The notes beneath the pieces are model-generated. The model made no database searches and was not told the DNA's origin. It saw only the letters and a program-made list of their open reading frames with translations. A program made the position numbers and the translations under genes. A stretch of DNA of 32,180 nt from Chitinispirillia bacterium (GTDB lineage: Bacteria > Fibrobacterota > Chitinivibrionia > Chitinivibrionales > Chitinispirillaceae): assembly GCA_009786575.1 (NCBI GenBank), contig WQRV01000011.1, positions 1-32,180 of the forward strand. The letters are read 5' to 3'. Positions within the stretch are counted from its first letter, which is position 1. Each line of letters opens with the position of its first letter. Shown in pieces: positions 7,280-30,143 of this stretch.

Positions 7280-7312
7280 TTAAAGACAGACACATCTAAG
7301 GAGGGGAAACCT

Positions 7313-8485
7313 ATGGCGACGGGCGCACATGATGCGACGATGGTGAGGCTCCGGGGGCTGAAGAAGCGCCGGGCGCTTGTTATTTCGGCAGGCGGCATAC
7401 GCAGCGGTATTCAGGTGCTGTACGTGGGGTACGAGGGCGACGAGTGGGAGATCTTCTCGACCGCGTATCTGCCGTGGCCGCAGAGGGTTGGCGACCTGAT
7501 CGCCCGTCTCAACGAGACGGAGGATCCCGTAGCGCTTTCCGACTTTGCCTGGCTCGACTACAAGGTGACGATGCTCTTCCTCGACGCCGCGAAGGCCGCG
7601 CTCACGGCGGCGCACAAGTCCATAGGCGGGCCGCACTACGCGGCGCTCAACAAGCCGAACCTTTGGAAAGGGCCCACCGGCGAGAATCTGCAGCAGGGCT
7701 ACTGGAACGTGATGGCAGGCGACGCGCCGTACCTGGCCACCTCGCTGGGGATACCGGTAATAACTGAGTTTCTGCGCCACAACATCGTAGCCGGGGGGCC
7801 GGGCCTGCTGCCCACATATCCCGGGAGCCTGATCATCGCGAGGAAGACGGAAGGGGTGGGCCTGTTCCTTAATATAGGGATGGTCTCGCGGATGAGCATC
7901 ATCGGCAAGGGGGGCTCCAAGCTGATATTTGAGTCGGACGTTGGCCCGGGGACCGTGCTCATCGACAAATGCGCGGCGGTGGCCGAGTGCCCGGGGGGGA
8001 TCGACCGCGACGGGCAGCTCACCGCCAAAGGGTACCCCAACGCCGAGTGCCTCGAAATACTCTCCGCCGACCCGTGGCTCTCTAAAGCCGCGCCCAAGTA
8101 CGCCTCGCCGGAGATATTCGCGAACCTGCTCTCGCACCCGTGCTTAAACCCGCTGAGCAACGTAGACAAGATGGCCACCATAACCGCGCTCACGGCGGTA
8201 AGCGCGTACCACTTCTACAGGCGGGAGTACAGGGGGGCAGCGCAGCCCGAGGCGCTCTGGGTATCGGGCGGCGGCGGGAACAATCTGGCGCTGCTCGATT
8301 ATTTAAAGGCATCGTTCGACCCAATACCGGTGCGCAGCGTTGAGGAACTGGGCGTGCCGGCGGATATGAAGATACCGCTTACGCTGGGGCTTACGGCAGA
8401 CGCCTTCATTTGCGGGAAGAAGGTACCCTGGGAGTCGGGGGTTACGCCGAAAATTAAGCCGTTAGGCAGGTGGGTACTGCCGTAA
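7313..8485 (+). CDS. AnmK-family protein with a degenerate active site
   Basis: Protein of 390 residues that aligns along its length with anhydro-N-acetylmuramic acid kinase, the murein-recycling enzyme that opens and phosphorylates anhMurNAc. Family landmarks are GIPVITEFLRHNIVAGGPG (~147-164, the DFR..D.A.GGQG region), FLNIG (~185), ESDVGPGTVLID (~207-218), DPWLSKAAPK (~253) and SGGGGNN (~318-324). The expected catalytic acidic residues are altered. The N-terminal SGTSxDGxD loop reads AGGIRSGIQ, so both Asp are gone. The Asp taken as general base in characterised AnmK aligns with Asn157. ADMK stands where other members have D.EA. It is therefore probably not an ordinary AnmK. A strong ribosome site and intact frame argue against a pseudogene. 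Its 3' end overlaps larC by 24 bp on the opposite strand. Confidence 0.78.
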   Translation: MATGAHDATMVRLRGLKKRRALVISAGGIRSGIQVLYVGYEGDEWEIFSTAYLPWPQRVGDLIARLNETEDPVALSDFAWLDYKVTMLFLDAAKAALTAAHKSIGGPHYAALNKPNLWKGPTGENLQQGYWNVMAGDAPYLATSLGIPVITEFLRHNIVAGGPGLLPTYPGSLIIARKTEGVGLFLNIGMVSRMSIIGKGGSKLIFESDVGPGTVLIDKCAAVAECPGGIDRDGQLTAKGYPNAECLEILSADPWLSKAAPKYASPEIFANLLSHPCLNPLSNVDKMATITALTAVSAYHFYRREYRGAAQPEALWVSGGGGNNLALLDYLKASFDPIPVRSVEELGVPADMKIPLTLGLTADAFICGKKVPWESGVTPKIKPLGRWVLP

Positions 8486-9679
8486 TACCGCGTCTATCGG
8501 CAGATTGTTTTCTTGCGCGATTTTCGCGATATCGCCGTATTCCGGTTTTGATTTTTTTGCGCCGTAACCTTCTGCGGATTTTACTCTGACGGGGCCGTAT
8601 TTTGTTTGAATCTCCGTTGATTCGCGCTGTAACGTGTAGCGGCGGCAGATGGTTTCGCGGATTCCTAATGTTGTTGTGTGCTTGAAAATCAATGAGACCA
8701 TCCTGTCTTTAACGGCATTACCGCACAGGCAGGAAAGCATTGCGCCCATACGCCCCTTCTTCATGCCGATTGACGTTACCCACACGTCAAGCGCACCCTC
8801 GCGCAGTAACGTCTCCTGAGCAAAGGCGAGGGATTCGGGGGTCATGTCGTCCAAATTGCAGGTGAGTTCTGCCATTTCATCCATACAATTATCGCCGGAT
8901 ATATCCCCAAGATACGCCCTGACACAGTTTATCTGCGGAAAGTCTTTCTTGCCCATGCCATAGCCTGTTTTGCAAACCGCCATCACCGGCATATTTGTGA
9001 ATTTGCCGACGAAGTGTTTGAGGAGCGCTGCGCCGGTCGGGGTGCAGAGTTCGGTTTTTATCGCGCCGTCATTATAGATGGGGACATCCCTCAAAATATG
9101 CGCGGTTGCGGGAGCGGGGACCGGCAAAATACCGTGGGCGCAGCTGACTTGGCCGGATCCGGTGTTGACCGGGGAGGCGAGGATGGCATCTGGCGCGAGT
9201 TCTTCAATCAGCATACAGACGCCGACAATATCGGCAATGGCATCCTTTTCCCCTACTTCATGGAAATGAATCTGGCGGACGGGGACGCCGTGGGAGCGGC
9301 TTTCGGCTTCGGCTATCAGTTTATAGACATCCAGCGCGTTTTTCTTTACGTTGCCGGATACCTTCAGATGACCGATTATGTGTTCTATATCGTGATAACC
9401 GCTATGGTGATGCTCGCGATCCGGTTCATGGTGATGGCCGTGGTGATTATCATGGTGATGGCCATCCGCGCATTCTTCCCTCCCGTCAACTTTTACTGTG
9501 ATACCGGTCCCCGTTATCCCGCATTTTTTTGATGGTTCGGAAGATACTGTAACGCCGTCAATACCTGCATTATTTAATCGTTCCAAAAATCCCGCCCGGT
9601 CATCAACCAATTCCAGGAGCGCCGCCATCAGCATATCGCCGGCAGCCCCCATATTGCATTCTATATAGAGTGACCCCAT
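8462..9679 (-). CDS. larC: LarC, nickel insertion in nickel-pincer nucleotide synthesis
   Basis: LarC (DUF111 family), 405 residues. LarC inserts Ni into the thiocarboxylated pyridinium nucleotide to finish the NPN cofactor, whose known client is lactate racemase LarA and its relatives. Evidence: the start MGSLYIECNMGAAGDMLMAAL, the RQIHFHEVGEKDAIADIVG motif, the ELCTPTGAALLKHF motif, and a His-rich stretch (residues ~74-100) placed as in other LarC proteins. The C-terminal half (TCNLDDMTPE onward, FKHTTTLGIRE) is full length. In some lactobacilli LarC needs a programmed frameshift to join two parts; here it is one uninterrupted frame. A GAGGGG site precedes the ATG, three bases after larB ends. 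Confidence 0.93.
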   Translation of the reverse strand: MGSLYIECNMGAAGDMLMAALLELVDDRAGFLERLNNAGIDGVTVSSEPSKKCGITGTGITVKVDGREECADGHHHDNHHGHHHEPDREHHHSGYHDIEHIIGHLKVSGNVKKNALDVYKLIAEAESRSHGVPVRQIHFHEVGEKDAIADIVGVCMLIEELAPDAILASPVNTGSGQVSCAHGILPVPAPATAHILRDVPIYNDGAIKTELCTPTGAALLKHFVGKFTNMPVMAVCKTGYGMGKKDFPQINCVRAYLGDISGDNCMDEMAELTCNLDDMTPESLAFAQETLLREGALDVWVTSIGMKKGRMGAMLSCLCGNAVKDRMVSLIFKHTTTLGIRETICRRYTLQRESTEIQTKYGPVRVKSAEGYGAKKSKPEYGDIAKIAQENNLPIDAVLRQYPPA

Positions 9680-9682
9680 AGT

Positions 9683-10435
9683 TCATCCCCTCAAATGGTT
9701 TATCATGCTCGCCATATACCCGGCCCCGAAACCGTTATCGATATTGACGACGCTCACCCCCGACGCGCACGAGTTAAGCATCGCCAGAAGCGCCGATATC
9801 CCGCCAAACGACGCGCCGTAACCTACGCTCGCCGGTACGCCTATCACCGGGCAGTCAACCAGCCCGCCTATGACGCTCGTCAGCGCGCCCTCCATGCCCG
9901 CTACCGACACTACGACACGCGCGTTCATCAGCACATCCAGCTTAGACGACAATCTGTGCAGCCCCGCAACACCCACATCATACATCCTCACTACCTCGTT
10001 GCCCAGCGCCTCGGCCGTAACCGCGGCCTCCTCGGCCACCGGCATATCGCTCGTACCCGCCGCGGCTACCACTATCCTGCCCACGCCGTTTGGCTTGGGG
10101 ATATCGCCTATGATACCGATCCGCGCGGCGTCAAAATATTGTATTGGGATATCCTTGTTGATGACATCAGCAACATCCCGCGCCAGCCTCGTTATCAGCA
10201 CTAATTTTTGCCCTCTGTCAACCATAGCCTTTGCTATTCCGGTTATCTGGCCCGGCGTTTTGCCGGCGCCGTATATCACCTCCGGCACACCCTGGCGCAG
10301 CCCGCGGTGGTGGTCTAATTTCGCGTATCCCAAGTCCTGAAACGGTTCGGTGCACATTTGGGAGAGCGCATCATCCGGCGAGACCTCCCCAGCCTGTATC
10401 TTTTTGAGGATATCCAAAGTTTCCTGTTTATTCAT
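9683..10435 (-). CDS. larB: LarB, pyridinium carboxylase/hydrolase of NPN synthesis
   Basis: LarB carboxylates the pyridinium ring of nicotinic acid adenine dinucleotide and releases AMP, giving the mononucleotide that LarE thiolates. The family signature LDHHRGLRQGVPEVIYGAGKT lies at ~40-60. The C-terminal half (VVAAGTSDMPVAEEAAVTAE onward, GLVDCPVIGVPASVGYG) is the PurE-like AIR-carboxylase domain. At 250 residues it is full length. I chose the ATG at 10435 because GGAGGG lies 6 bases upstream; a GTG one codon earlier is only 3 bases from that site. The start overlaps the larE stop (TGATG), indicating tight coupling. Confidence 0.93.
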   Translation of the reverse strand: MNKQETLDILKKIQAGEVSPDDALSQMCTEPFQDLGYAKLDHHRGLRQGVPEVIYGAGKTPGQITGIAKAMVDRGQKLVLITRLARDVADVINKDIPIQYFDAARIGIIGDIPKPNGVGRIVVAAAGTSDMPVAEEAAVTAEALGNEVVRMYDVGVAGLHRLSSKLDVLMNARVVVSVAGMEGALTSVIGGLVDCPVIGVPASVGYGASFGGISALLAMLNSCASGVSVVNIDNGFGAGYMASMINHLRG

Positions 10436-11193
10436 CACCGGCCCTCCATATCCATCAAAATTGTCTCAAAATACGGTTTAACCGCCTTCAAAATTTCTTC
10501 CCGCCTGTAAACAGCGCTGAACATCTGTTCCTGCTTAAACTGTAATTTTGCCTGTGCGCCGCCGCTGTTATCCGCGATTATCCTTACGCGGAGGTCGCGA
10601 AAACCCATCTCGAAAAGCGCGTCCTCGGCCATCTCTATCCGCTGCAACAGTCCGGCCGTAATGGGCATATTGGACGGGATGCGCGTAGCCAGACAGGCGT
10701 AGGCAGGCTTGTCCCACGTAAAGAGCCCCGCCGCCTTCGAGATGCGCCGCACATCGTCTTTCGTGATGCCGCATTCGCGCAGCGGCGAGCGGACGCCCAT
10801 CTCGGTAAGCGCACGCATGCCCGGGCGGGCGGCCTCGTCGTCCGAAGCGTTCGTTCCGTCTATGATGAGCGGCACACCCACAGCCTTCGCGTATGTGCGC
10901 AAAGCGCCGAATATCGACTTTTTGCAGTAGTAACACCGGCCGGCCGGATTAGTGGAAACCCGCACGTCAGCCAATACATCCTTCTCTATAACCACAATCT
11001 CTGCCCCGACGTACTCCGCCAGCCGCAGCGCGTCCATAAGCTCAAACTCCGGCTGAAACGCGGTCTTAACAAAACACGCCCTTATCTTCGCGCCGCAGAT
11101 GCTGCCGGCATACAACAAAAAGGAAGAATCGACGCCGCCCGAAAAGCCAAGCACGGCAGACCGGTTCTCCCTGAAAAAATCTTCGAGCGTCAT
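10435..11193 (-). CDS. larE: LarE, ATP-dependent sulfur transferase of NPN synthesis
   Basis: LarE adenylates and thiolates the carboxylated pyridinium mononucleotide. The PP-loop is GFSGGVDSS (~16-24 from the ATG at 11193). Three Cys stand where the iron-sulfur type of LarE has them: C87 and C90 in GRCYYCKK, and C167 in AYACLATRI. The Lactobacillus-type enzyme has only the last of these, used as a sacrificial sulfur donor. This protein is therefore probably a [4Fe-4S]-dependent, catalytic LarE (inference). At 252 residues it is near family length. A TTG at 11229 would add 12 residues, but neither start has a clear ribosome site. It begins about 10 bp after the cbiM-like gene ends. Confidence 0.9.
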   Translation of the reverse strand: MTLEDFFRENRSAVLGFSGGVDSSFLLYAGSICGAKIRACFVKTAFQPEFELMDALRLAEYVGAEIVVIEKDVLADVRVSTNPAGRCYYCKKSIFGALRTYAKAVGVPLIIDGTNASDDEAARPGMRALTEMGVRSPLRECGITKDDVRRISKAAGLFTWDKPAYACLATRIPSNMPITAGLLQRIEMAEDALFEMGFRDLRVRIIADNSGGAQAKLQFKQEQMFSAVYRREEILKAVKPYFETILMDMEGR

Positions 11194-11203
11194 GGCTGCA
11201 GAA

Positions 11204-12034
11204 TCATCCGCCGGTAACCGGGCCGTCAATAGCAGCCGGCGCAGACCCGGCGGCTTTTTCTATCGACCACTCAAGGCCGTCGGGCGCGCTCGACGCAAAA
11301 GGCGGCAGCGCAAGGCCGGCGATCAGTGCGGAAACGGCAAAAGCGGCTATGACTTTTTTTACGGGTACAAAAACTGCCGCCGGATTGTCAAGAGCGCCGG
11401 ACATGAGCGCCGGGCTCGTTTTGCGGATGAGGCAGAGAACGGCAGCCGTCGCGGCCCCTTCGATAAGGCCGATCGCCAGATGGATGGGGAGCATCGCCAT
11501 AGTGAAATCAACAAACGGCAGTGCGGTAATGCCGGACGCCTGAGTCATCAGCACCACGCCAAACGCTCCAAGCTGCAGCGCTATAATACCCGACGCGACC
11601 GAGGCGAGGGCGGTTCTGACCATTGATGCGTTGTTTTTGATTAATGGTTTGAATATCAGCGGATAGACAATAAGGCACGGGATGACGCCCACGTTAAAAA
11701 TGTTCGCGCCAAGCGCCAGCACCCCGCCGTCTCCCAACAAAAAACATTGGACCGTCAGGACAGACGCCATGACGAGCATAGCAGGCGCTGCGCCCACAAG
11801 GGCGGCGAGCATTACGGCTCCGAGGATGTGCCCGCTCGAACCGGTGCCCACGATAGCGTAGTTCACCGCCTGCGCGGCGAGGATGGCGGCGCCGGCGGCG
11901 AGGGATACGGCGGCCTTTTTGAAATTGATGCCGTCTTTTTTGATCTTGACGGCGGCGCAGGTAACCGCGGCGGCCGAGGCGGCAAACATTGTAACCCCAA
12001 CTGCCGGGGACAGCAAACAATCGGTCATGTGCAT
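11204..12034 (-). CDS. CbiM/NikM-type nickel or cobalt ECF transporter component with a PDGLE tail
   Basis: Substrate-binding membrane subunit, 276 residues, of an energy-coupling-factor metal transporter. The N-terminus MHMTDCLLSP keeps the family His2 that helps bind the metal, and GSSGHILGA supplies a second His (~69). About seven hydrophobic segments follow. The C-terminus contains PDGLE (~251-255), the mark of a fused CbiN/NikN-like small subunit. No CbiQ/NikQ or CbiO/NikO is in view, so those subunits must be elsewhere if the transporter is complete. Placement just before larE, larB and larC favours nickel over cobalt (inference). AAGGAGATATT precedes the ATG, 43 bp after lpxA. Confidence 0.85.
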   Translation of the reverse strand: MHMTDCLLSPAVGVTMFAASAAAVTCAAVKIKKDGINFKKAAVSLAAGAAILAAQAVNYAIVGTGSSGHILGAVMLAALVGAAPAMLVMASVLTVQCFLLGDGGVLALGANIFNVGVIPCLIVYPLIFKPLIKNNASMVRTALASVASGIIALQLGAFGVVLMTQASGITALPFVDFTMAMLPIHLAIGLIEGAATAAVLCLIRKTSPALMSGALDNPAAVFVPVKKVIAAFAVSALIAGLALPPFASSAPDGLEWSIEKAAGSAPAAIDGPVTGG

Positions 12035-12077: not shown

Positions 12078-12917
12078 TCAATCATCACGCATTCTCAAGA
12101 ATCCTTTTTCACTGCCCTTGACAAAGCCGGTCAGGTTTTTTACATTTTCATCATCCGGGAAATCAGTATTGATCTTTGTTAAGGCATCATTCAGAGACAG
12201 GCCGTCCCTGAATAATATTTTGTAGGCGGATTTGATATTGTTTATTTGCCCGGGGGTAAACCCTCTTCGTTCGAGGCCTACCTTGTTTATGCTTACTATT
12301 CTCATCGGCTCGGTCCCTACAAGCGCGTACGGCACGATGTCGGATGCTACTCTGGCTCTTGCCCCCACCATCGCGTAGTCGCCTATCCTTACGAACTGGT
12401 TGATTGTAACCACGCCGCTTATCGTTACGCCGTTACCTACCGTTACGTGGCCCGCCATCGCCAGTGCGTTTGAGATTGTCGCGTCGTCGCCTACGCTGCA
12501 ATCGTGGGCTATGTGGCAGTAGGCCATGATCCATCCGCGCTTGCCTACGCGCGTTTCGCCTGTCGCGGCGGTGCCGCGGTTGATTGTGGCGTATTCGCGG
12601 ATGAGCGTCTCTTCGCCTATTACGGCGAGCGTTTTTTCGCCGGCGTACTTTTTGTCCTGCGGCTCCTGGCCTATAGACGCGCCCTGAAATATGCGGCAGC
12701 GCGGGCCTATGCGCGCACCGTTGCAGATCATCGCGTGCGGGCCTATCTCGGTGCCGTCGCCGATCTCCACATCGCGTTCAATTACCGTGTAGGGACCAAT
12801 TGTTACGTTTACGCCAAGCTGTGCGCCGGGCTCGATGATAGCGGCCGGGTGGATCGCGGTCATCCCCGCGGCAACCGACGCGGCCGGACAGCATGAACAG
12901 CTGTTATTGTCTGACAT
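12078..12917 (-). CDS. lpxA: LpxA, UDP-N-acetylglucosamine acyltransferase
   Basis: First enzyme of lipid A synthesis, transferring a 3-hydroxyacyl chain from ACP to UDP-GlcNAc. At 279 residues it has left-handed beta-helix hexapeptides from ~20 to ~200 and the usual helical C-terminus (GLERRGFTPGQI). The catalytic His of E. coli LpxA (H125) aligns with H138 in CHIAHDC, and H144 with H157. The E. coli acyl-length ruler Gly173 aligns with Ala186, and His160 with Asn173. An extra N-terminal segment of ~18 residues carries a CSCC cluster. It is supported by an AAGGGAAAG site before the first ATG, though starting at Met19 would give a more usual N-terminus. It lies 12 bp after lpxC/fabZ. Confidence 0.94.
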   Translation of the reverse strand: MSDNNSCSCCPAASVAAGMTAIHPAAIIEPGAQLGVNVTIGPYTVIERDVEIGDGTEIGPHAMICNGARIGPRCRIFQGASIGQEPQDKKYAGEKTLAVIGEETLIREYATINRGTAATGETRVGKRGWIMAYCHIAHDCSVGDDATISNALAMAGHVTVGNGVTISGVVTINQFVRIGDYAMVGARARVASDIVPYALVGTEPMRIVSINKVGLERRGFTPGQINNIKSAYKILFRDGLSLNDALTKINTDFPDDENVKNLTGFVKGSEKGFLRMRDD

Positions 12918-18978: not shown

Positions 18979-21438
18979 CTATACGCCGCTCTCCACCGCT
19001 TCCGCTTTCTTAAAGATCACGCCTTCATCATCGGTTTCGAGGGATATTATATCACCGTCGCCGAAGTTATTGAGCAGAAACTCCTCGGCCAGCGGATCCT
19101 CAACGGAGCGCTGGATCGAGCGGCGCAGCGGGCGTGCGCCGAGAACCGGATCGTACCCCTTGTCAACCAGAAACTTTTTCATAGCCTCGGTGAAGATTAG
19201 CTTGATACCGCGGTCAACGAGGCGCTCCTGCACCTCATTCAGCTGGATGTCCACAATCCTCGCGATCTCGTCCTTGCCGAGCGGCGCGAAGACGATAGTC
19301 TCGTCTATGCGGTTTATGAACTCCGGGTTGAAGATGCGCTTCATCTCGTCCATCACCTTGCTTTTCATCGCCTCGTAATCGGACGCGGCGTTATTCCTGC
19401 CAAACCCTACGGTGCCGGTCTTCTTGACATCGCGGGAACCGGCGTTGGAGGTCATTATGATGACGGTGTTTTTAAAGTTGACGTGGCGGCCGTAGGAATC
19501 GGTAAGGATGCCGTCGTCAAGCACCTGTAAGAGGATGTTGAAGACATCAGGGTGCGCTTTCTCTATTTCATCGAGGAGGATGACGGAGTACGGCTTCTTG
19601 CGGATCTTCTCCGTAAGCTGGCCGCCCTCCTCGTACCCCACGTACCCCGGAGGCGCACCGACGAGGCGCGACACGGCGTGTTTTTCCATGTATTCCGACA
19701 TGTCAATACGGACAAGCGCGTCGTCTGTGTCAAACAGAGATTGCGCAAGCGCCTTGGCCAATTCCGTTTTGCCAACGCCCGTCGGCCCCAAAAATATGAA
19801 CGACGCTATGGGGCGGCGGGTATTGTGCAGCCCCGCACGCGAACGCCTGATGCTCCTGGCGACAGCTCCGAGCGCCTCGTCCTGCCCGATAACCCTGCGG
19901 CGCAGCTCGTCTTCCAGATGCAGTATCTTCTTCGTCTCCTCCTCCGCAAGGCGCGTGAGGGGGATCCCGGTCATCGTGGCTATAACCTCATTAATAGTCG
20001 ATTCGTCAACAAGCAGCCTCTCCTCCGCCTTGGCCTTGCGCCACAGCGCTTTTTGTTCCAATAACGTACCGTTCAATTTCTCCTGCTTGTCCCGAAGCTG
20101 CGCGGCACGCTCGAACTCCTGCTGCTCAACCGCAAGCTCCTTGTCGCGCAAGACCTCCGCAATCTCTTTTTCGATGTCGCGGATATCGGTAGGTATCTCC
20201 ATGCTCGAAAGGCGCTTCCTCGCGCCCGCTTCGTCAATCACGTCAATCGCCTTGTCGGGCAAGAACCTGTCGGAGATGTAACGGTCGGAAAATTTGACCG
20301 CAGCCTCAATAGCCTTCTCGGTATAAGTAACTTTGTGGTGCTCCTCGTAATTGTGGCGGAGGCCGGAAATTATCTGTATCGTTTCGGCTACGCTCGGCGG
20401 GTCAACCATGATCGTCTGGAATCTGCGGGCCAGCGCGCCGTCCTTCTCGATATATTTACGGTATTCGTCGAGTGTTGTAGCGCCTACGCACTGTATCTCC
20501 CCGCGCGACAGCGCGGGTTTGAAGATGTTCGACGCATCGAGGCTCCCTTCGGATCCGCCCGCCCCTACTATCGTGTGCAATTCGTCAATAAAGATGATGA
20601 TGTTGTCGTTCTTCTGCAGTTCAACCATTAGCGCCTTGAGCCGCTCCTCGAACTGGCCGCGGTACTTGGTGCCAGCCACCATCGAGGCCATGTCCAAATT
20701 GATGACGCGCTTGTTTTCGAGGACCTGCGGTATGTTCTTTTCGATAATTTTCTGCGCGAGCCCCTCAACGATAGCCGTCTTGCCTATCCCCGGCTCGCCG
20801 ATCAGCACCGGGTTATTCTTCTTGCGGCGGCTGAGGATCTGCACTACGCGCTCGATCTCCTTCTCCCTGCCTATGACCGGGTCGAGCTTATTGTCCTTGG
20901 CCATTGCCGTGAGGTCGCGGCCGAAGTGGTCCATAAACGGGGTCTTGCTCTTCTCCTTTGGGCCGCCCGGGCCGCCGTTCACCCCGCCGGAGACCTCGCC
21001 GCCCTTGAGCACGCGGCTGATCTCCTCCTTAACGCGGTCGTACTCAAGCCCCGCCGCGGCGAGCGCATTGGCCGCCGCCGATTCGGTGTCTTTCATAAGC
21101 GCGAGGAGCAGGTGCTCGGTACCGATGTACTTGTGCGACATCGACCGCGCCTCGTTGGCCGCAAGCTCCAGCACTTTCTTGGCGCGCGGCGTGAATGGGA
21201 GCATCTGCCCCACCGTCATCATCCCGCCCGCCGAGGTAACCGCCTTTTCTATGCTCATCGCCAGATCATCGAGGTCAACCCCCATCCCGTTCATAACCGC
21301 GACCGCGACGCCGTCGCCCTCTTTTATCAAACCTAAAAGCAGGTGCTCGGTACCGACATAATCGTTACCGAGGCGTACCGACTCTTCCCTTGCGATCTGC
21401 ATCACCTTTTTGACGCGGTCCGTAAACATGCCATTCAT
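18979..21438 (-). CDS. clpC: ClpC, Hsp100 unfoldase with UVR motif
   Basis: AAA+ unfoldase of 819 residues. Two Clp_N repeats (~3-140; [14 protein letters not shown] and [14 protein letters not shown]) lead to AAA-1 with Walker A GEPGIGKT (~214). The middle domain includes a UVR motif ([18 protein letters not shown], ~438-455), the feature that separates ClpC from ClpA and ClpB. AAA-2 has Walker A GPTGVGKT (~551) and a VGFG loop that should dock ClpP. In Bacillus, ClpC binds phosphoarginine on substrates marked by McsB, and McsA/McsB also serve as its adaptors; both are encoded just upstream. No clpP is in the window. The gene runs straight into bamA, which is unusual. Confidence 0.95.
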
Positions 21439-21471
21439 ATATATTGCAGCCCTTTCGTTATTCTAAAATTA

Positions 21472-21498
21472 GCGGGCAGCCGAGGGCGGCCGCCCATG
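21472..21498. repeat. dispersed GC-rich palindrome, copy 3
   Basis: GCGGGCAGCCGAGGGCGGCC followed by GCCCATGC lies in the 172-bp gap between mcsB and clpC. It has the same layout as 31-58: a GCGGGC half-site, CGAGGGC, then a GGGCGGCCGCCC palindrome. As the largest break in the mcsA-mcsB-clpC-bamA run, the gap may also hold a separate promoter, but I see no clear one. Confidence 0.55.
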
Positions 21499-21610
21499 CA
21501 TTATTACAATTAACGGACAACCGGATTGCCCCCATACCGCCTTATCATATCACACCGGATTAACAGTAATCCCCGCAAATCACGTAAAAATAATTCCCGC
21601 CAATTCCCCC

Positions 21611-22720
21611 CTACTGCGTTTTCCGCCTAACGCGCCTCTTTTTCCCGAAGGCCTCCCGCACAACCTCCGCCCTCGCGGCGTCCATCTCGGAGGGGGCGTT
21701 GTCCCTGTCGCTGATATATATCTGCAGGTGCGCCGGCATGCAGATCACAACCAGCTCGTTTATGTCCTCGACCGTCCGCTCCTCGTATAGCCCGCAGTCA
21801 ATCCCGAGCCTTAAAGCCGACGTAAGGTTCAAAAGCTCTCCCAGCCCCAGCACCCGCGCGTTAGCAAGCATCCCGTGCGCGCGCCACACCTTGTCGGCGA
21901 CCTCAAGGCGGGCGTCTTTTAAAAGCCGCTCCCGCGCCGTGCGCTCATGGGCGATTATCTCCCTTATCACCTTGCTTGTAGACTCAATGAACTCCGCCTC
22001 GCTCGACCCCATCGTGGCGCGGTTCGATAACTGAAAAAAGTTGCCCACCACGTCGGAGTGTTCCCCAAAAAAACCGCGCGTCGATATCCCCATCTGGCTC
22101 GCGCCCTGCAAAACCGGATCTATCGCCTTAGTGAGCACCAGCCCCGGCAGGTGCATCAGATACGAGACCCGCAAGCCCGTCCCCGAGTTCGTCGGGCAGG
22201 CCGTAAGGAAGCCGAACCGCTCGCTGTAGGCGTACTTGAGCCCCTTGCCTATGCTGTCGTCAACCCTGCTCGTCATCTCCCACAGGTCGAACGTGTGGAA
22301 CCCGGAGGCCATCCCCTGAATGCGCAGGTGATCCTCCTCATTTATCATGACGCAGTACTTGCGCGAGTTGTCGCAGGCCACGCCGCGCTCGCCCTCGCCC
22401 TTGAGCATGTCCATGCTCACCATGCGCTCCTCGACCAGAAAGTGCTGCTCGAGCTTGCGCAGCCGCCCGAAGTTGATCACCTCAAGCTTGCCGCACGGCA
22501 TGGACGCGCCGCCCAGCACCGCCGATATCTCCTTAAAGACCTTCTGCTTGTCCCGCGCCGAGGCCCGCGCCGGAAACCTGTGCGCCGCGAGGTTGCGGGC
22601 GAGGCGGATCCGCGTCGCTACCACAACATCCTCATCGGGCCCCATGTTGCCGAGCCATACCGGCATCCCTCCGTAGAGGCGGAACCGCTTCGCCGCGCTC
22701 ATTTTGGCAGCGCCGTTCAT
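21611..22720 (-). CDS. mcsB: McsB, protein-arginine kinase
   Basis: Bacterial guanido-phosphotransferase family kinase that phosphorylates arginine in proteins, marking them for ClpCP. At 369 residues it matches the McsB length. Motifs are VVATRIRLARN (~32-43), VINEEDHLR-like MINEEDHLR (~125-133) in the active site, CPTNSGTGLR with Cys175 at the nucleotide site, and SSEAEFIE (~239). Near the C-terminus, where well-studied McsB has the phosphoarginine-sensing RDxxRA motif, this protein reads MDAARA (~346-351), keeping D, R and A but not the first Arg. It overlaps the mcsA end by four bases (ATGA), so the two are coupled as in Bacillus. Confidence 0.94.
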   Translation of the reverse strand: MNGAAKMSAAKRFRLYGGMPVWLGNMGPDEDVVVATRIRLARNLAAHRFPARASARDKQKVFKEISAVLGGASMPCGKLEVINFGRLRKLEQHFLVEERMVSMDMLKGEGERGVACDNSRKYCVMINEEDHLRIQGMASGFHTFDLWEMTSRVDDSIGKGLKYAYSERFGFLTACPTNSGTGLRVSYLMHLPGLVLTKAIDPVLQGASQMGISTRGFFGEHSDVVGNFFQLSNRATMGSSEAEFIESTSKVIREIIAHERTARERLLKDARLEVADKVWRAHGMLANARVLGLGELLNLTSALRLGIDCGLYEERTVEDINELVVICMPAHLQIYISDRDNAPSEMDAARAEVVREAFGKKRRVRRKTQ

Positions 22721-23274
22721 TTCGCGTCTAACTTCAGGCTGCTTATGGTGTCGCGGATTAGCGCGGCATCCTCAAACCGCTCGCTCTTCACGGCGGCGTC
22801 GAGCTCGCGGCGCAGCTTCGCGATGTCCCGCTTGCCCCCCCGGCGCGGGGCCTTGCCGTAAATCTTCCCCTTGTGCCCGTCCGCCCCGTGGATCTGCATC
22901 AATATCCGGTCGATCCGCTCCTCAAAACTTGCGTAGCACTCCGCACACCCAAGCCACCCGCCCGACCGGAACTCCGAAAACTTCATCCCGCAGTTCGAAC
23001 ACGTTATGTCCGGCTCCGGCACCTCCTCATCCTCGTCCGCCGCCCCCCCCGGCTCCTTAACCGTCACTTTGACGTGCGTCTCCGCCGCCATAGCCGACCC
23101 CGCCGTACCCGTCAAACCCGCCAAACCCTTTATGAGCGAGTCCCCATCCGGCAGCGGCAACCCCCGCTTTCGGGCGCAATCCTCGCAAAGATGAAACGTC
23201 TGCGTCTCGTTCTGCTCTACATGCGTAAGGTGCACATTTGCGGGATTAACCCCGCAATCGTCGCAAATATCCAT
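22717..23274 (-). CDS. mcsA: McsA, zinc-binding activator of McsB
   Basis: Protein of 185 residues with the McsA architecture. There are two zinc-finger sets, C4/C7 with C30/C33 (CDDCG, CEDC) and C92/C95 with C110/C113 (CSNC, CAEC). An acidic linker (AADEDEEVPEPD) sits between them, and a C-terminal UVR motif (KLRRELDAAVKSERFEDAALIRD, ~153-175) matches the one in ClpC. McsA stimulates McsB and bridges it to ClpC. AAGGA lies 7 bases before the ATG. As first gene of the long minus-strand run it has its own upstream promoter candidate. The repressor gene ctsR, normally before mcsA in Firmicutes, is absent here. Confidence 0.93.
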   Translation of the reverse strand: MDICDDCGVNPANVHLTHVEQNETQTFHLCEDCARKRGLPLPDGDSLIKGLAGLTGTAGSAMAAETHVKVTVKEPGGAADEDEEVPEPDITCSNCGMKFSEFRSGGWLGCAECYASFEERIDRILMQIHGADGHKGKIYGKAPRRGGKRDIAKLRRELDAAVKSERFEDAALIRDTISSLKLDAK

Positions 23275-23365: not shown

Positions 23366-23394
23366 AATATAGAATATGCCGGGGGGATGTGCAA
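23366..23394 (-). promoter_or_regulatory. candidate promoter of the mcsA run
   Basis: On the minus strand, TTGCAC and TATATT are separated by 17 bases, about 90 bases upstream of mcsA. It overlaps the first codons of the divergent ORF6N gene. No CtsR-type or CIRCE-type operator is apparent around it. Confidence 0.4.
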
Positions 23395-23939
23395 AATTTT
23401 TACAATTAAAAAATTTAACCGCCCAAACCGCTGACGGACAGGCGAGAACCGGGACAAAGGTCCTGCTGGACCGCGATGTCGCCTACCTGTACGGAGTAGA
23501 GACCAAAGAGGTCAATCAGGCAGTTAAAAATAACCCGGATAAGTTCCCGGACGGATACATAATTCTAGTTGACAACGATGAGAAACTCGAACTGGTCAAA
23601 AATTTTGACCAGTTCAACTCGCTCAAACATTCCTACGCCCCAATTAAGGCTTTTACCGAAAAAGGGCTGTACATGCTCGCCACCATCCTCAAAAGCCCGC
23701 AGGCCACGCAGACCACCCTGGCGATCATCGAAACCTTCGCCAAAATCCGCGAATTGACCCGGACTGTCGGCGAACTGGCCAAAAAGGCCACAAAGGAGGA
23801 AAAGGAACCGCTCATGCAGAAAAGCGGGGAGATTATCTCGGACATTTTGGGCGATTCCCTTAATATCTCCGAGACAGAGACCACTTTTGAGATCAATCTG
23901 GCCGTTATGAGCCTGAAACATACGGTCAAAAAGAGGTAA
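23376..23939 (+). CDS. ORF6N-domain protein, copy 1, altered N-terminus
   Basis: Protein of 187 residues with an ORF6N domain (GTKVLLDRDVAYLYGVETKEVNQAVKNN to IKAFTEKGLYMLATILKS, ~27-110), a phage- and plasmid-associated DNA-binding fold related to KilA-N. A helical C-terminus follows. The first ~25 residues do not match the KVVEIRG lead of the neighbouring copy, and no ribosome site precedes the ATG, so the native start may have been lost. The frame is otherwise intact. The region from residue ~90 to the stop is nearly identical in DNA to the next gene. Family members are often annotated as phage antirepressors or regulators. Its target is unknown. Confidence 0.65.
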   Translation: MPGGCAKFLQLKNLTAQTADGQARTGTKVLLDRDVAYLYGVETKEVNQAVKNNPDKFPDGYIILVDNDEKLELVKNFDQFNSLKHSYAPIKAFTEKGLYMLATILKSPQATQTTLAIIETFAKIRELTRTVGELAKKATKEEKEPLMQKSGEIISDILGDSLNISETETTFEINLAVMSLKHTVKKR

Positions 23940-23947
23940 TATCAGGC
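23642..23947 (+). repeat. near-identical 306-bp direct repeat, first copy
   Basis: Aligns without gaps to 24276-24581 (offset 634). It covers the C-terminal half of the ORF6N gene, the stop codon and a few bases beyond (TAATATCAGGC). Only a handful of mostly silent changes are visible, while the upstream halves of the two genes differ at many positions. Confidence 0.92.
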
Positions 23948-24039
23948 GGAACCGGAGGATTTAGCGGGCCGGGGAGTGAGGCCGGCGCGGTTGATTCATA
24001 ATAATTCAGTATCAATATCCAACAGAAAGGGGTATTATT

Positions 24040-24573
24040 ATGGGCTTAATTATTGATGTAGATTCGAAAGTGGTCGAAATCCGCGGGACAAAGGTCCTGC
24101 TTGACTGTGATGTTGCTTCTTTGTATGGGGTCGAGACCAGAGAAGTCAATCAGGCTGTCAAAAATAATCAGGATAAGTTCCCGGACGGGTATATAATTTT
24201 TCTTGACAAAACCGAGAAAGATGAACTTATCAAAAATTTTGATAACCTCGGTTCACTGAGGTATTCGCCCGCCCAAATTAAGGCTTTTACCGAAAAAGGG
24301 CTGTACATGCTCGCCACCATCCTCAAAAGCCCGCAGGCCACGCAGACCACTCTGGCGATCATCGAAACCTTCGCCAAAATCCGCGAATTGACCCGGACTG
24401 TCGGCGAACTGGCCAAAAAGGCCACAAAAGAGGAAAAGGAGCCGCTCATGCAGAAAAGCGGGGAGATTATCTCGGATATTCTGGGCGATTCCCTTAATAT
24501 CTCCGAGACAGAGACCACTTTTGAGATCAATCTGGCCGTTATGAGCCTGAAACATACGGTCAAAAAGAGGTAA
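24040..24573 (+). CDS. ORF6N-domain protein, copy 2
   Basis: Protein of 177 residues with a complete ORF6N domain: VVEIRGTKVLLDCDVASLYGV, VNQAVKNNQDKFPDGYIIFL and IKAFTEKGLYMLATILKS. The C-terminus is rich in Glu and Lys (KKATKEEKEPLMQKSGE). AAAGGGG lies before the ATG, giving this copy a proper ribosome site that copy 1 lacks. It is probably DNA-binding and sequence-specific, but the target is unknown. The neighbouring genes are housekeeping, with no phage structural or integrase genes in view, so these are likely domesticated or stranded mobile-element genes. Confidence 0.8.
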   Translation: MGLIIDVDSKVVEIRGTKVLLDCDVASLYGVETREVNQAVKNNQDKFPDGYIIFLDKTEKDELIKNFDNLGSLRYSPAQIKAFTEKGLYMLATILKSPQATQTTLAIIETFAKIRELTRTVGELAKKATKEEKEPLMQKSGEIISDILGDSLNISETETTFEINLAVMSLKHTVKKR

Positions 24574-26700: not shown

Positions 26701-27246
26701 ATGCCAAACAGACCAATGCAATCAGTCGGCAACAAGAGGCGGGGCGGGGCGGGCGACCGGCGTACCGGGGCCGCGCTAAATAGCGCGATGCCCGTTAAAG
26801 GGTGCGGCTGGGAGGATATCAGCGAGCGCAGGGACGGTATAAACGACAGACGGGACGGTATAAATGATGCTAAGGCCGGGACAAAGAAAGGCCGGACCGG
26901 ATTAAATGACCGGAGGGCCGGAACAACCGGCGGGGACAAGGCCAATACTGCCGGAGAGTGGACGGATATCAGCGAGAGGCGGGGCGGTATAAATAACCGC
27001 AGGGTCGGGATAAACAGCGAGCGAGCCGGTATAAATATAACTAAGAACCAGTGGCTGATACTTGAGGCCATCGCCGAAAACTCTAATATCACGGCGGTTG
27101 AGCTCTCTGACCTGGTGGGCATCTCTGTCAGGAAGATCGAGACGAACATACAGAAGCTCAAGGCCAAGGGGGTGCTTGAGCGCGTAGGCGCGCGCAAAAA
27201 CGGGTACTGGATGCTGACGCAGCCGGACGGGGAGAGTATGGAATGA
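26701..27246 (+). CDS. winged-helix protein with N-terminal GIN heptad repeats
   Basis: Protein of 181 residues in two parts. Residues ~37-112 are built from 7-residue units of the form RRxGIN(D/N/S), some decayed, including two matching blocks W.DISERR.GIN 50 residues apart. Residues ~114-173 form a winged-helix DNA-binding domain (ILEAIAENSNITAVELSDLVGIS, RKIETNIQKLKAKGVLERVG, NGYWML). From memory of the family, this pairing of GIN-rich linker and winged helix is the C-terminal end of AlbA_2/Schlafen-type ATP-binding regulators. The large N-terminal part of those proteins is missing here, and the upstream gene is unrelated. It is strongly basic. Its stop overlaps the hddA start by four bases (ATGA), so it may regulate, or simply ride with, the heptose genes. 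Confidence 0.65.
   Translation: MPNRPMQSVGNKRRGGAGDRRTGAALNSAMPVKGCGWEDISERRDGINDRRDGINDAKAGTKKGRTGLNDRRAGTTGGDKANTAGEWTDISERRGGINNRRVGINSERAGINITKNQWLILEAIAENSNITAVELSDLVGISVRKIETNIQKLKAKGVLERVGARKNGYWMLTQPDGESME
26812..27036 (+). repeat. 21-bp in-frame repeat region (heptad GIN repeats)
   Basis: About ten 21-bp units, each encoding a heptad like RRDGIND. The best preserved are GACGGTATAAACGACAGACG and its neighbours near 26836-26868 and the set near 26980-27036. Units in the centre are diverged. Confidence 0.75.
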
Positions 27247-28235
27247 TAATCACCAAAACGCCTTTTAGGATGTCCTTTTTCGGCGGCGGGACGGATTTTC
27301 CCGAATTTTACCGCGAACACGGCGGCGCGGTCCTCGTTACCACGTTCGACAAGTACTGCTACGTGAACGTGCGGCGCCTGCCCCCGTTTTTTGATTACTC
27401 AACGGAACTCTCCTACTCAGTAATCGAGCGGGTTGGGGATATTGGCGACATAAGGCACCCCGCGATACGCGAGGCGATGAAGTACCTTGACATGCGGGAT
27501 ATACGCCTCACCTACGAGGCGGACTTGCCGGCTCGCAGCGGCCTGGGGACAAGCAGCTCTTTCGCCGTGGGGATGCTTAGCGCGTTCTACGCCCTCACGG
27601 GAAAGCACAAAAGCAACCGCCAGCTCGCCGACGACGCGATCTATCTCGAAAGGACCCTGTGCAGCGAAACGGGCGGCGTTCAGGACCAGATAGCGGCGGC
27701 TTTCGGTGGATTCAACAGAATCGAGTTCAACGAAAACGGTTACACCGTGAACCCGCTGATAATATCCAACGCCAGAAAAAAAGAGCTGGACGATAACCTG
27801 ATTATGTTTTTCACCGGATTTTCGAGGTTCTCCGCCGATATTCAGGCCGATACGCAAAAAGCGCTGAAGGATAAAACAAAACAGCTCCTTGAGATGAAGC
27901 AGCTCGTGTATGACGCTGAGAAAATCCTCACATCCTCATCCGGCCTTAATGATTTCGGGAAACTGCTTGATTATACGTGGAAGATTAAGAGGGGAATCTC
28001 TACGGGGATATCCACCGGCTCCATCGATAGTATATACGATACGGCGATGAAAAACGGCGCGGCGGGCGGCAAACTGCTCGGGGCAGGCGGCGGCGGATTT
28101 TTTGTCTTTTACTGCGAGAAGGACAAACAGCCCTCGCTCATAAAGGCTCTGGAAAAATTCTTATATGTCCCCTTCGCCTTCGAAAACGAGGGGACGCGCG
28201 TTATCCACTACACACCGGAAGACAGCGGGGCATAG
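27243..28235 (+). CDS. hddA: HddA-like D-glycero-alpha-D-manno-heptose-7-phosphate 1-kinase
   Basis: GHMP kinase of 330 residues. The N-terminus ITKTPFRMSFFGGGTDFPEFY is typical of sugar-1-kinases of the HddA/Fkp type. The ATP loop is PARSGLGTSSSFAVG (~97-110), and the third motif is GAAGGKLLGAGGGGFFVFY (~272-290). HddA phosphorylates the anomeric alpha position and so leads to the GDP-heptose branch, unlike HldE, which makes the beta-phosphate. Neighbours gmhA and the hddC-gmhB fusion supply all other steps, which supports the assignment. GGGGAGAG precedes the ATG. It overlaps the preceding gene by four bases. Confidence 0.9.
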   Translation: MIITKTPFRMSFFGGGTDFPEFYREHGGAVLVTTFDKYCYVNVRRLPPFFDYSTELSYSVIERVGDIGDIRHPAIREAMKYLDMRDIRLTYEADLPARSGLGTSSSFAVGMLSAFYALTGKHKSNRQLADDAIYLERTLCSETGGVQDQIAAAFGGFNRIEFNENGYTVNPLIISNARKKELDDNLIMFFTGFSRFSADIQADTQKALKDKTKQLLEMKQLVYDAEKILTSSSGLNDFGKLLDYTWKIKRGISTGISTGSIDSIYDTAMKNGAAGGKLLGAGGGGFFVFYCEKDKQPSLIKALEKFLYVPFAFENEGTRVIHYTPEDSGA

Positions 28236-28883
28236 ATGAAAACGTCGGCCGAAAAAATATTGAACAGCCTATTCCTGAAATACCCGCAGCTTGGCGGCAT
28301 CAGGCAAAATATCACAGACAGTATCGAACTCGCGGCTAAATCCTTTGCAAGCGGAAATAAACTGCTCGTATGCGGGAACGGGGGAAGCGCCGCCGACAGC
28401 GAGCACATCGCCGGCGAACTCATGAAAGGATTTGTGTTGAGGCGCGAATTGTCAGACAAGCAGCAGGCGCGGATAAAAAGCAGGTTCCCCCATCACGCCG
28501 ATTATCTGATTGCCAACCTGCAACAGGCGCTCCCCGCGATCTCATTAGTAAGCCAGACTTCGTTATGCACCGCCATCGCAAACGACAACTCTTCGGATTT
28601 TATCTTCGCGCAACAAGTGCTGGGGTACGGAAAAGAGGGCGATATCCTGCTGGCGATAAGCACATCCGGCACATCAAAAAACATCGTCTACGCTGCGGAG
28701 ACCGCTAAAGCGTCCGGGATGAGCGTCATCGCGCTGACGGGAGAGTCCGGCGGGACTCTTAAAGACATCTGCGACATTTTGGTGAACGTGCCGGAAACCG
28801 AACCGTACAAGGTTCAGGAACTGCACCTGCCGTATTACCACACATTCTGCCTGACGCTGGAACAGGAATTTTTCGGGGAGTGA
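28236..28883 (+). CDS. gmhA: GmhA, sedoheptulose-7-phosphate isomerase
   Basis: SIS-domain isomerase of 215 residues that converts sedoheptulose 7-phosphate to D-glycero-D-manno-heptose 7-phosphate, the first step of heptose synthesis. Landmarks are LLVCGNGGSAADSEHIAGELMKGF (~43-66), SLVSQTSLCTAIANDNS, the SIS loop LAISTSGTSKNIVYAAETAK, and the C-terminal VQELHLPYYHTFCLTLE with the conserved His/Glu pair. It is slightly longer than the E. coli protein because of a segment (LSDKQQARIKSRFPHHADYL) also common in HddA-linked GmhA proteins. The ATG directly follows the hddA stop codon. Confidence 0.93.
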   Translation: MKTSAEKILNSLFLKYPQLGGIRQNITDSIELAAKSFASGNKLLVCGNGGSAADSEHIAGELMKGFVLRRELSDKQQARIKSRFPHHADYLIANLQQALPAISLVSQTSLCTAIANDNSSDFIFAQQVLGYGKEGDILLAISTSGTSKNIVYAAETAKASGMSVIALTGESGGTLKDICDILVNVPETEPYKVQELHLPYYHTFCLTLEQEFFGE

Positions 28884-28889
28884 ACGAAA

Positions 28890-30143
28890 TTGAAAACCGT
28901 AATCATGGCAGGCGGCAAAGGGACGAGGATCGCCGAGGTCAACCCGGAGGTTCCAAAGCCGATGATAGAAATTTGCGGGAAACCGATACTTTTGCACCAG
29001 ATAAACGTACTCAAGGAACAGGGCTTTAAAGATATAACCCTGATTATCGGGCATCTCGGGAAGATAATCGAGGATTACTTCGGCGACGGTTCGAATTTCG
29101 GGGTGGACATCAAATATATCCGCGAAGATGTGCCGCTCGGAACCGCCGGGGCGCTGTTTTATCTTAAAGATGAGATCCGCGATGATTTTTTGCTGATAAA
29201 CGGGGACATTATCTTTGACATCGACATAAAGAGATTTCTCGATTTCCATAAAAAGTTTGGCGGGATGGCGACGATATTCACACATCCGAACAATCACCCT
29301 TACGACAGCGGGATAATCATCGCCGGCGATAATCACAAAGTAACCGGCTGGCTTCACAAGGAGGACGAGCGAAAGTGGTACAAAAACAGGGTAAACGCCG
29401 GGCTGCACATCCTCTCGCCGGAAGTATTGGCGCAGTTCACCGAACCGCGCAAAACGGATCTCGACAGGGACATTCTGAAAAAACTTATCAATACCGGCGG
29501 GCTTACATGTTACGATTCCCCCGAATACGTACGCGACATGGGGACTCCGGACCGCTACAAACAGGTTACACGGGATATGGATACCGGCCTTGTTAAAAAG
29601 AAGAACCTGTCGAATAAACAGGAAGCGGTATTTATTGACCGTGACGGTACTATAAATAAATATGCCGGTTTTCTCAGGGATATTGATGACTTTCAATTAA
29701 TTGACGGCGTTGCCGAATTTATCATCAACGCCAACGCCGCCGGCAAATTGGTCGTCGTAATAACGAATCAGCCCGTAATAGCGAGGGGCGATATATCGTG
29801 GGGCGAACTTTCGGAAATCCACAATAAAATGGAAACATTGCTGGGGGAGAAAGGCGCGTATGTGGATGATATATTCATCTGCCCGCACCACCCCGACAAA
29901 GGGTTTGAAGGGGAAAGGCCCGAATATAAGATAGACTGCGCGTGCCGGAAACCAAAGCCGGGATTGCTCATGCTGGCCGCCGAAAAGTACAACATCGATC
30001 TCGCGGAATCCATTATGATCGGCGACAGCGATGCGGATATCGCGGCGGGAGAGGCCGCCGGGTGCGCGGCTTTTAAAATCCGGCGCGATGAACGGTGGGC
30101 CGAGACAATCCCGGCAAAATACACCTCCACCCTGCGGCAGTAA
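28890..30143 (+). CDS. hddC-gmhB: HddC-GmhB fusion: heptose-1-P nucleotidyltransferase and heptose bisphosphatase
   Basis: Bifunctional protein of 417 residues. Residues 1-~235 form a sugar nucleotidyltransferase (MAGGKGTRIAEVNPEVPKPM, NGDIIFDID, VNAGLHILSPEVL). Residues ~245-417 form a HAD phosphatase of the GmhB type (FIDRDGTIN with D250 and D252, ITNQPVIARG, zinc site CPHHP and CACRKPKPG, GDSDADIAAG). Together they remove the 7-phosphate and add the nucleotide, in reverse of gene order. With gmhA and hddA the route to NDP-D-glycero-alpha-D-manno-heptose is complete. The nucleotide is probably GDP by analogy. The start is TTG, with GGGGAG 9 bases upstream across the gmhA stop; a further Met at residue 6 would cut the nucleotide loop. 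Confidence 0.9.
   Translation: MKTVIMAGGKGTRIAEVNPEVPKPMIEICGKPILLHQINVLKEQGFKDITLIIGHLGKIIEDYFGDGSNFGVDIKYIREDVPLGTAGALFYLKDEIRDDFLLINGDIIFDIDIKRFLDFHKKFGGMATIFTHPNNHPYDSGIIIAGDNHKVTGWLHKEDERKWYKNRVNAGLHILSPEVLAQFTEPRKTDLDRDILKKLINTGGLTCYDSPEYVRDMGTPDRYKQVTRDMDTGLVKKKNLSNKQEAVFIDRDGTINKYAGFLRDIDDFQLIDGVAEFIINANAAGKLVVVITNQPVIARGDISWGELSEIHNKMETLLGEKGAYVDDIFICPHHPDKGFEGERPEYKIDCACRKPKPGLLMLAAEKYNIDLAESIMIGDSDADIAAGEAAGCAAFKIRRDERWAETIPAKYTSTLRQ

Follow-up and report, generated by a model that had tools for sequence, protein, structure and literature searches.

The closest described relatives of the protein considered here are AnmK, a sugar kinase of peptidoglycan recycling, and levoglucosan kinase (LGK), both with the actin/hexokinase (ASKHA) fold. 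In the Pseudomonas aeruginosa enzyme (PaAnmK), Asp182 is reportedly the catalytic base, as is Asp212 in LGK. Not all proteins with this fold are kinases. FtsA, PilM, and TsaB are ASKHA-fold proteins with non-kinase roles, and none of them is known to derive from AnmK. In Pseudomonas, the AnmK-MupP-AmgK-MurU recycling route operates without MurQ (PMC5371407). None of the papers in the literature collection searched mentions AnmK together with the word pseudoenzyme. The fold and the family are already known, and the order-wide replacement of the AnmK catalytic apparatus presented below appears to be undescribed in that collection.

The AnmK-Like Gene of a Chitinispirillales Bacterium

The window, that is, the whole stretch of 32,180 nucleotides that was analysed, comes from a Chitinispirillales bacterium (class Chitinispirillia, phylum Fibrobacterota). 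At 7313..8485 on the plus strand it carries an AnmK-superfamily protein of a Chitinispirillales type, assigned from its ORF, PF03702, an AlphaFold2 (AF2) model, and purifying selection. The initial annotation had described an intact frame of 390 codons with a good ribosome site, and both are present: a strong Shine-Dalgarno sequence, AAGGAGG, lies just 5' of the start ATG (7292..7315, plus strand). Similar purine-rich sites precede the ATG in several orthologues of the same genus. An antisense ORF at 7280-8137 on the minus strand was judged spurious, because substitutions cluster at the third codon positions of the plus-strand frame.

The proposed membership of the AnmK family is borne out by Pfam, in which PF03702 is the sole match of the 390-aa protein (E 2.2e-28). 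The match is full-length, scores 99.8 bits against a gathering cut-off of 24, and is shared by all 28 aligned members of the family. The NCBIfam AnmK equivalog models (PRK09585) give at best 134 bits, against a curated cut-off of 387. The AF2 model, computed from the alignment of the 28 members, has a mean pLDDT of 89.6, and its 24 best PDB fold matches are LGK and AnmK structures with TM values of about 0.7-0.85; more remote fold matches include FtsA and PilM. Given these best matches and this pLDDT, the LGK/AnmK (actin/hexokinase) fold predicted by the model can be considered safe.

Rewriting of the Kinase Motifs

The 28 family members were compared with 13 diverse canonical AnmKs in a MAFFT alignment. 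Among the 57 columns that are near-invariant in the canonical enzymes, 26 are changed in the family, 24 are kept, and 7 are mixed. The phosphate-1 loop, canonically SGTSxDGxD, reads AGGIRSGIQ in the window (residues 26-34; 7388..7414, plus strand) and (S)AGGxxSGIQ across the family, with Q34 in 26/28 members; the Thr/Ser of SGTS are likewise changed. Both Asp of the loop are present in 13/13 canonical sequences and absent from 28/28 members, D14 and D17 of PaAnmK being replaced by S31 and Q34 as had been read before. The change noticed earlier in the late D.EA motif is equally real. At the conserved late Glu (PaAnmK E326, LGK E362) the alignments place Ile354 (8372..8374, plus strand), EA having become IP (I354, P355); this position is Glu in 13/13 canonical enzymes and acidic in none of the 28 members.

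The initial annotation was right on these two sites and understated the extent of the change, since SHGQT, NIGG..N, and DFR are altered too. SHGQT...H has given way to LNKPxxWK, represented in the window by LNKPNLWKG (residues 112-120; 7646..7672, plus strand), with LNKPN in the place of SHGQT itself; the His and Gly are gone in all 28 members, and N113, K114, and K/R119 are found in 27, 24, and 27 of them. FLRHN (residues 153-157; 7769..7783, plus strand), which contains Asn157, aligns in place of canonical DFRxxD. Its R155 is almost invariant in the family, and the Arg of canonical DFR is listed among the changed columns. The phosphate-2 motif NIGG..N has become NIGL..R/H (R/H193), GAPL has become GxLP, and GPGN has become GPGT. 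Asp209-x-GPG, Asp231, Pro261-Lys262, Asp285, Thr289, GGGxxN, DRDG, and DxxAT are kept.

The 28 aligned members have thus all lost the three phosphate/metal elements jointly: Asp/Thr/Ser of phosphate-1, GG..N of phosphate-2, and the late Glu. Q34, N113, K114, K/R119, R/H193, and P355 have been fixed anew. The homologue search suggested by the initial annotation found the same substitutions in the 28 aligned members, which come from five families of the order, so the pattern goes beyond chance. The altered columns vary less among family members than ordinary columns do (permutation p 0.0013) and are therefore re-constrained or re-specialised, not decaying.

The protein could still be a kinase acting on a different sugar through a metal-light or Lys-assisted phosphate site, as might be suggested by the retention of GGGxxN, DxxAT, Asp209, and GPG and by the profile search, in which LGK is the nearest protein of known structure (E 4e-43). 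This is an unlikely reading, since phosphate-1, phosphate-2, and the late Glu were lost together in every aligned member; the phosphate-1 Asp and Glu362 expected of a levoglucosan kinase are S31, Q34, and I354 here.

The Position of the General Base

It had also been claimed that the general-base Asp is now Asn157. Three alignments (phmmer, profile hmmsearch, and MAFFT) instead place Asp209 (ESDVGPG; 7937..7939, plus strand) opposite PaAnmK Asp182 and LGK Asp212, which rules out Asn157 as a lost general base. Asn157 lines up with PaAnmK Asp132, where canonical enzymes themselves differ, those of Hymenobacter and Pseudoalteromonas having His. The claimed loss of catalytic acids accordingly stands for both phosphate-1 Asp and the late Glu and fails for the base.

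Asp209 is present in 25/28 members, which leaves room for some chemistry that activates water. It was lost in L023, L028, and L030, members of f6/g20, f2/g12, and f1/g5, and a distant f4 member (G026) lacks the Asp209 region, surrounding GPG included. The base thus occurs widely yet can be dispensed with, and its absence from some deep members argues against an obligatory AnmK-type reaction. Together with the joint loss of the phosphate/metal elements and the newly fixed residues, several of them basic, this dispensability makes an AnmK-type kinase reaction unlikely in the family. Judged from the sequences, the protein probably binds something or performs a chemistry other than the AnmK kinase reaction. 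Conservation alone cannot discriminate between a binder and an enzyme with new chemistry.

Distribution, Descent, and Selection

Orthologues occur in 31/40 genomes of the order, as a single copy in each, and the genome of the window has exactly one AnmK-family gene. The gene is missing from G027 and from all five genomes of family f7, of which four are 96-97% complete; the other absences fall in incomplete genomes. Throughout 168 Fibrobacterota genomes, full-length AnmK matches are confined to Chitinispirillales and are all of the altered type. The search for a canonical AnmK that the initial annotation had called for found none in the same genome or in any of the 168, and a second, canonical enzyme doing the real work was discarded on this ground. 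In a maximum-likelihood tree the family is monophyletic against the 13 canonical AnmKs (from proteobacteria, Bacillota, Actinomycetota, Bacteroidota, Deinococcota, Thermomicrobiota, and a haloarchaeon), with support of 100/100 and a long branch between them. A pattern scan of contig records gave matches only in MAGs labelled Chitinispirillales, Chitinispirillia, Fibrobacteria, or Fibrobacter. A tblastn search of a plasmid collection yielded only matches under 60% identity; 12 of them were examined, and each was canonical.

The proposed dN/dS check points to purifying selection. NG86 estimates are dN 0.142 and dS 0.994 for the comparison with L003, the nearest relative, and dN 0.082 and dS 0.662 for the pair L005-L006, giving a dN/dS of about 0.1 (NG86 0.12-0.14 in the least saturated pairs, dS being saturated in more distant ones). 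The gene could be viewed as a decaying, functionless remnant of AnmK on account of its lost catalytic residues and its absence from f7 and G027. Such a reading is extremely improbable and already contradicted by the data: the listed orthologues have intact frames without inner stops, the low dN/dS holds, and new invariant residues run across five families. The earlier idea of selection for something other than the kinase reaction is well supported by the order-wide conservation, the re-fixed residues, the dN/dS, and the lack of a canonical AnmK in the genome and the phylum. The specific roles offered with that idea, sensing of a muropeptide or action on another anhydro-sugar, are candidate functions.

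It thus seems rather probable, on sequence grounds, that the gene encodes an order-specific, vertically inherited, AnmK-derived ligand-binding protein of the pseudokinase type without Mg-ATP phosphotransfer, where order-specific covers the Fibrobacterota genomes, the one pattern scan, and the tblastn search of the plasmid collection. An AnmK ancestor would have given up Mg-ATP phosphotransfer chemistry while retaining the actin/hexokinase fold. It would also have preserved the DRDG segment and the second lobe, which carries the GGGxxN nucleotide motif. Both phosphate loops, the strand with SHGQT, and the late Glu would have been rewritten, with Lys, Arg, Trp, and Gln fixed instead, as if the cleft now held an anionic ligand without a metal. 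We infer from this the loss of kinase activity, the binding of a ligand, and a role related to the status of the cell envelope.

Relation to Peptidoglycan Recycling

MurQ was found in none of 40 genomes of the order above the TIGR00274 cut-off, with no match in the genome of the window; the weak matches are mostly frames of about 600 aa and are probably SIS domains of GlmS. Since Pseudomonas AnmK feeds AmgK-MurU without MurQ, this absence alone does not disprove AnmK activity. The same genome has adjacent AmgK-like and MurU-like genes (L135 1297-3479, G000:C38). Their top-scoring NCBIfam models are AmgK (E 1e-19) and MurU (E 7e-26), both far under the equivalog cut-offs. An AmgK-like gene is present in 163/168 Fibrobacterota genomes, whether or not they carry the AnmK-like gene. 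It therefore shows no association with the latter, and co-occurrence was set aside as evidence for a functional link to AmgK-MurU. In several other families the AmgK-like matches lie in frames of 500-650 aa, which are perhaps AmgK-MurU fusions. AmpG-like proteins were detected in part of the order, with no match in the genus of the window, and the single GH3 frame of the genome, at 907 aa, is not of NagZ size.

These observations bear on the possibility that the protein is a hydrolase or lyase with an Asp base, opening an anhydro-sugar without ATP, for example converting anhMurNAc to MurNAc for the AmgK-MurU-like pair. The retention of Asp209 in most members, the adjacent pair, the absence of MurQ, and the MurQ-independent Pseudomonas route would be in line with it. 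This possibility must nevertheless be held rather doubtful, since the AmgK-like gene also occurs in genomes without the AnmK-like protein, the AmgK and MurU matches are so weak, SHGQT and DFR, which should hold the sugar, have changed as well, Asp209 is lost in some deep members, and the genus has no AmpG match. More speculative still, and quite improbable, is the idea that the only AnmK of the order became an ATP-independent anhydro-sugar hydrolase or a sensor of envelope status, providing a non-phosphorylating entry of anhMurNAc into AmgK-MurU-type recycling.

Genomic Surroundings

The ancestral neighbour of the gene in the order, by Pfam and synteny, is lpxA (12078..12917, minus strand in the window). 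At seven loci, in families f1, f2, f3, f5, and f6, the AnmK-like gene stands directly tail-to-tail with the lpxA of a BamA-Skp-LpxD-LpxC/FabZ-LpxA cluster. In the window a LarC-LarB-LarE-CbiM nickel-pincer cofactor cassette (8462-12034, minus strand) separates the two. Among the loci examined, this arrangement is found only here and at L091 of the same genus, and a functional link to larCBE-cbiM was dropped for that reason. An RpoD-type sigma gene recurs upstream on the same strand in eight loci, about 85-1600 bp away, and at such distances operon partnership was rejected. No conserved operon partner was seen in the loci examined; the context therefore reflects an ancestral placement and offers at most a weak hint of an envelope function.

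Other genes of the window merit mention in their own right. A GHMP kinase, a SIS-domain isomerase, and a fused nucleotidyltransferase-HAD gene lie in a row at 27243-30143 on the plus strand, just before uvrC, and look like a GDP-D-glycero-D-manno-heptose cassette (HddA-GmhA-HddC/GmhB). Two adjacent ORF6N-domain genes at 23376-24573, also on the plus strand, are possibly phage-derived duplicates. On the minus strand, at 18979-23274, lie genes for ClpC, a guanido kinase of McsB type, and a McsA-like protein with a UVR motif. Together they form a set for protein-arginine phosphorylation, in a genome that also has LPS genes.

Comparison with Known Systems

The order comprises gut and sediment bacteria. 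Pfam would label the clade as AnmK and credit these organisms with peptidoglycan recycling by phosphorylation, which, as far as sequence can tell, is probably wrong for the whole order. The family shows cleanly how an ASKHA sugar kinase is re-fixed for a different use, and its aligned orthologues make the loss and re-fixation of every motif testable.

With AnmK (PF03702; P. aeruginosa structures 3QBW and 3QBX) the family shares the fold, the length, the Asp182 equivalent, GPG, GGGxxN, DRDG, and DxxAT; it differs in the replacement of SGTSxDGxD, SHGQT, DFR, NIGG..N, and the late Glu, and forms a separate, long-branched clade. LGK (Lipomyces starkeyi, 4ZLU and 4ZXZ) is the best PDB match both by sequence profile and by fold, and its base Asp is kept; LGK is longer (about 447 aa) and has the phosphate loops and Glu362 that the family lacks. 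FtsA, PilM, and TsaB resemble the family in having an actin/hexokinase fold without small-molecule phosphotransfer, although no sequence relation between them and the family was detected.
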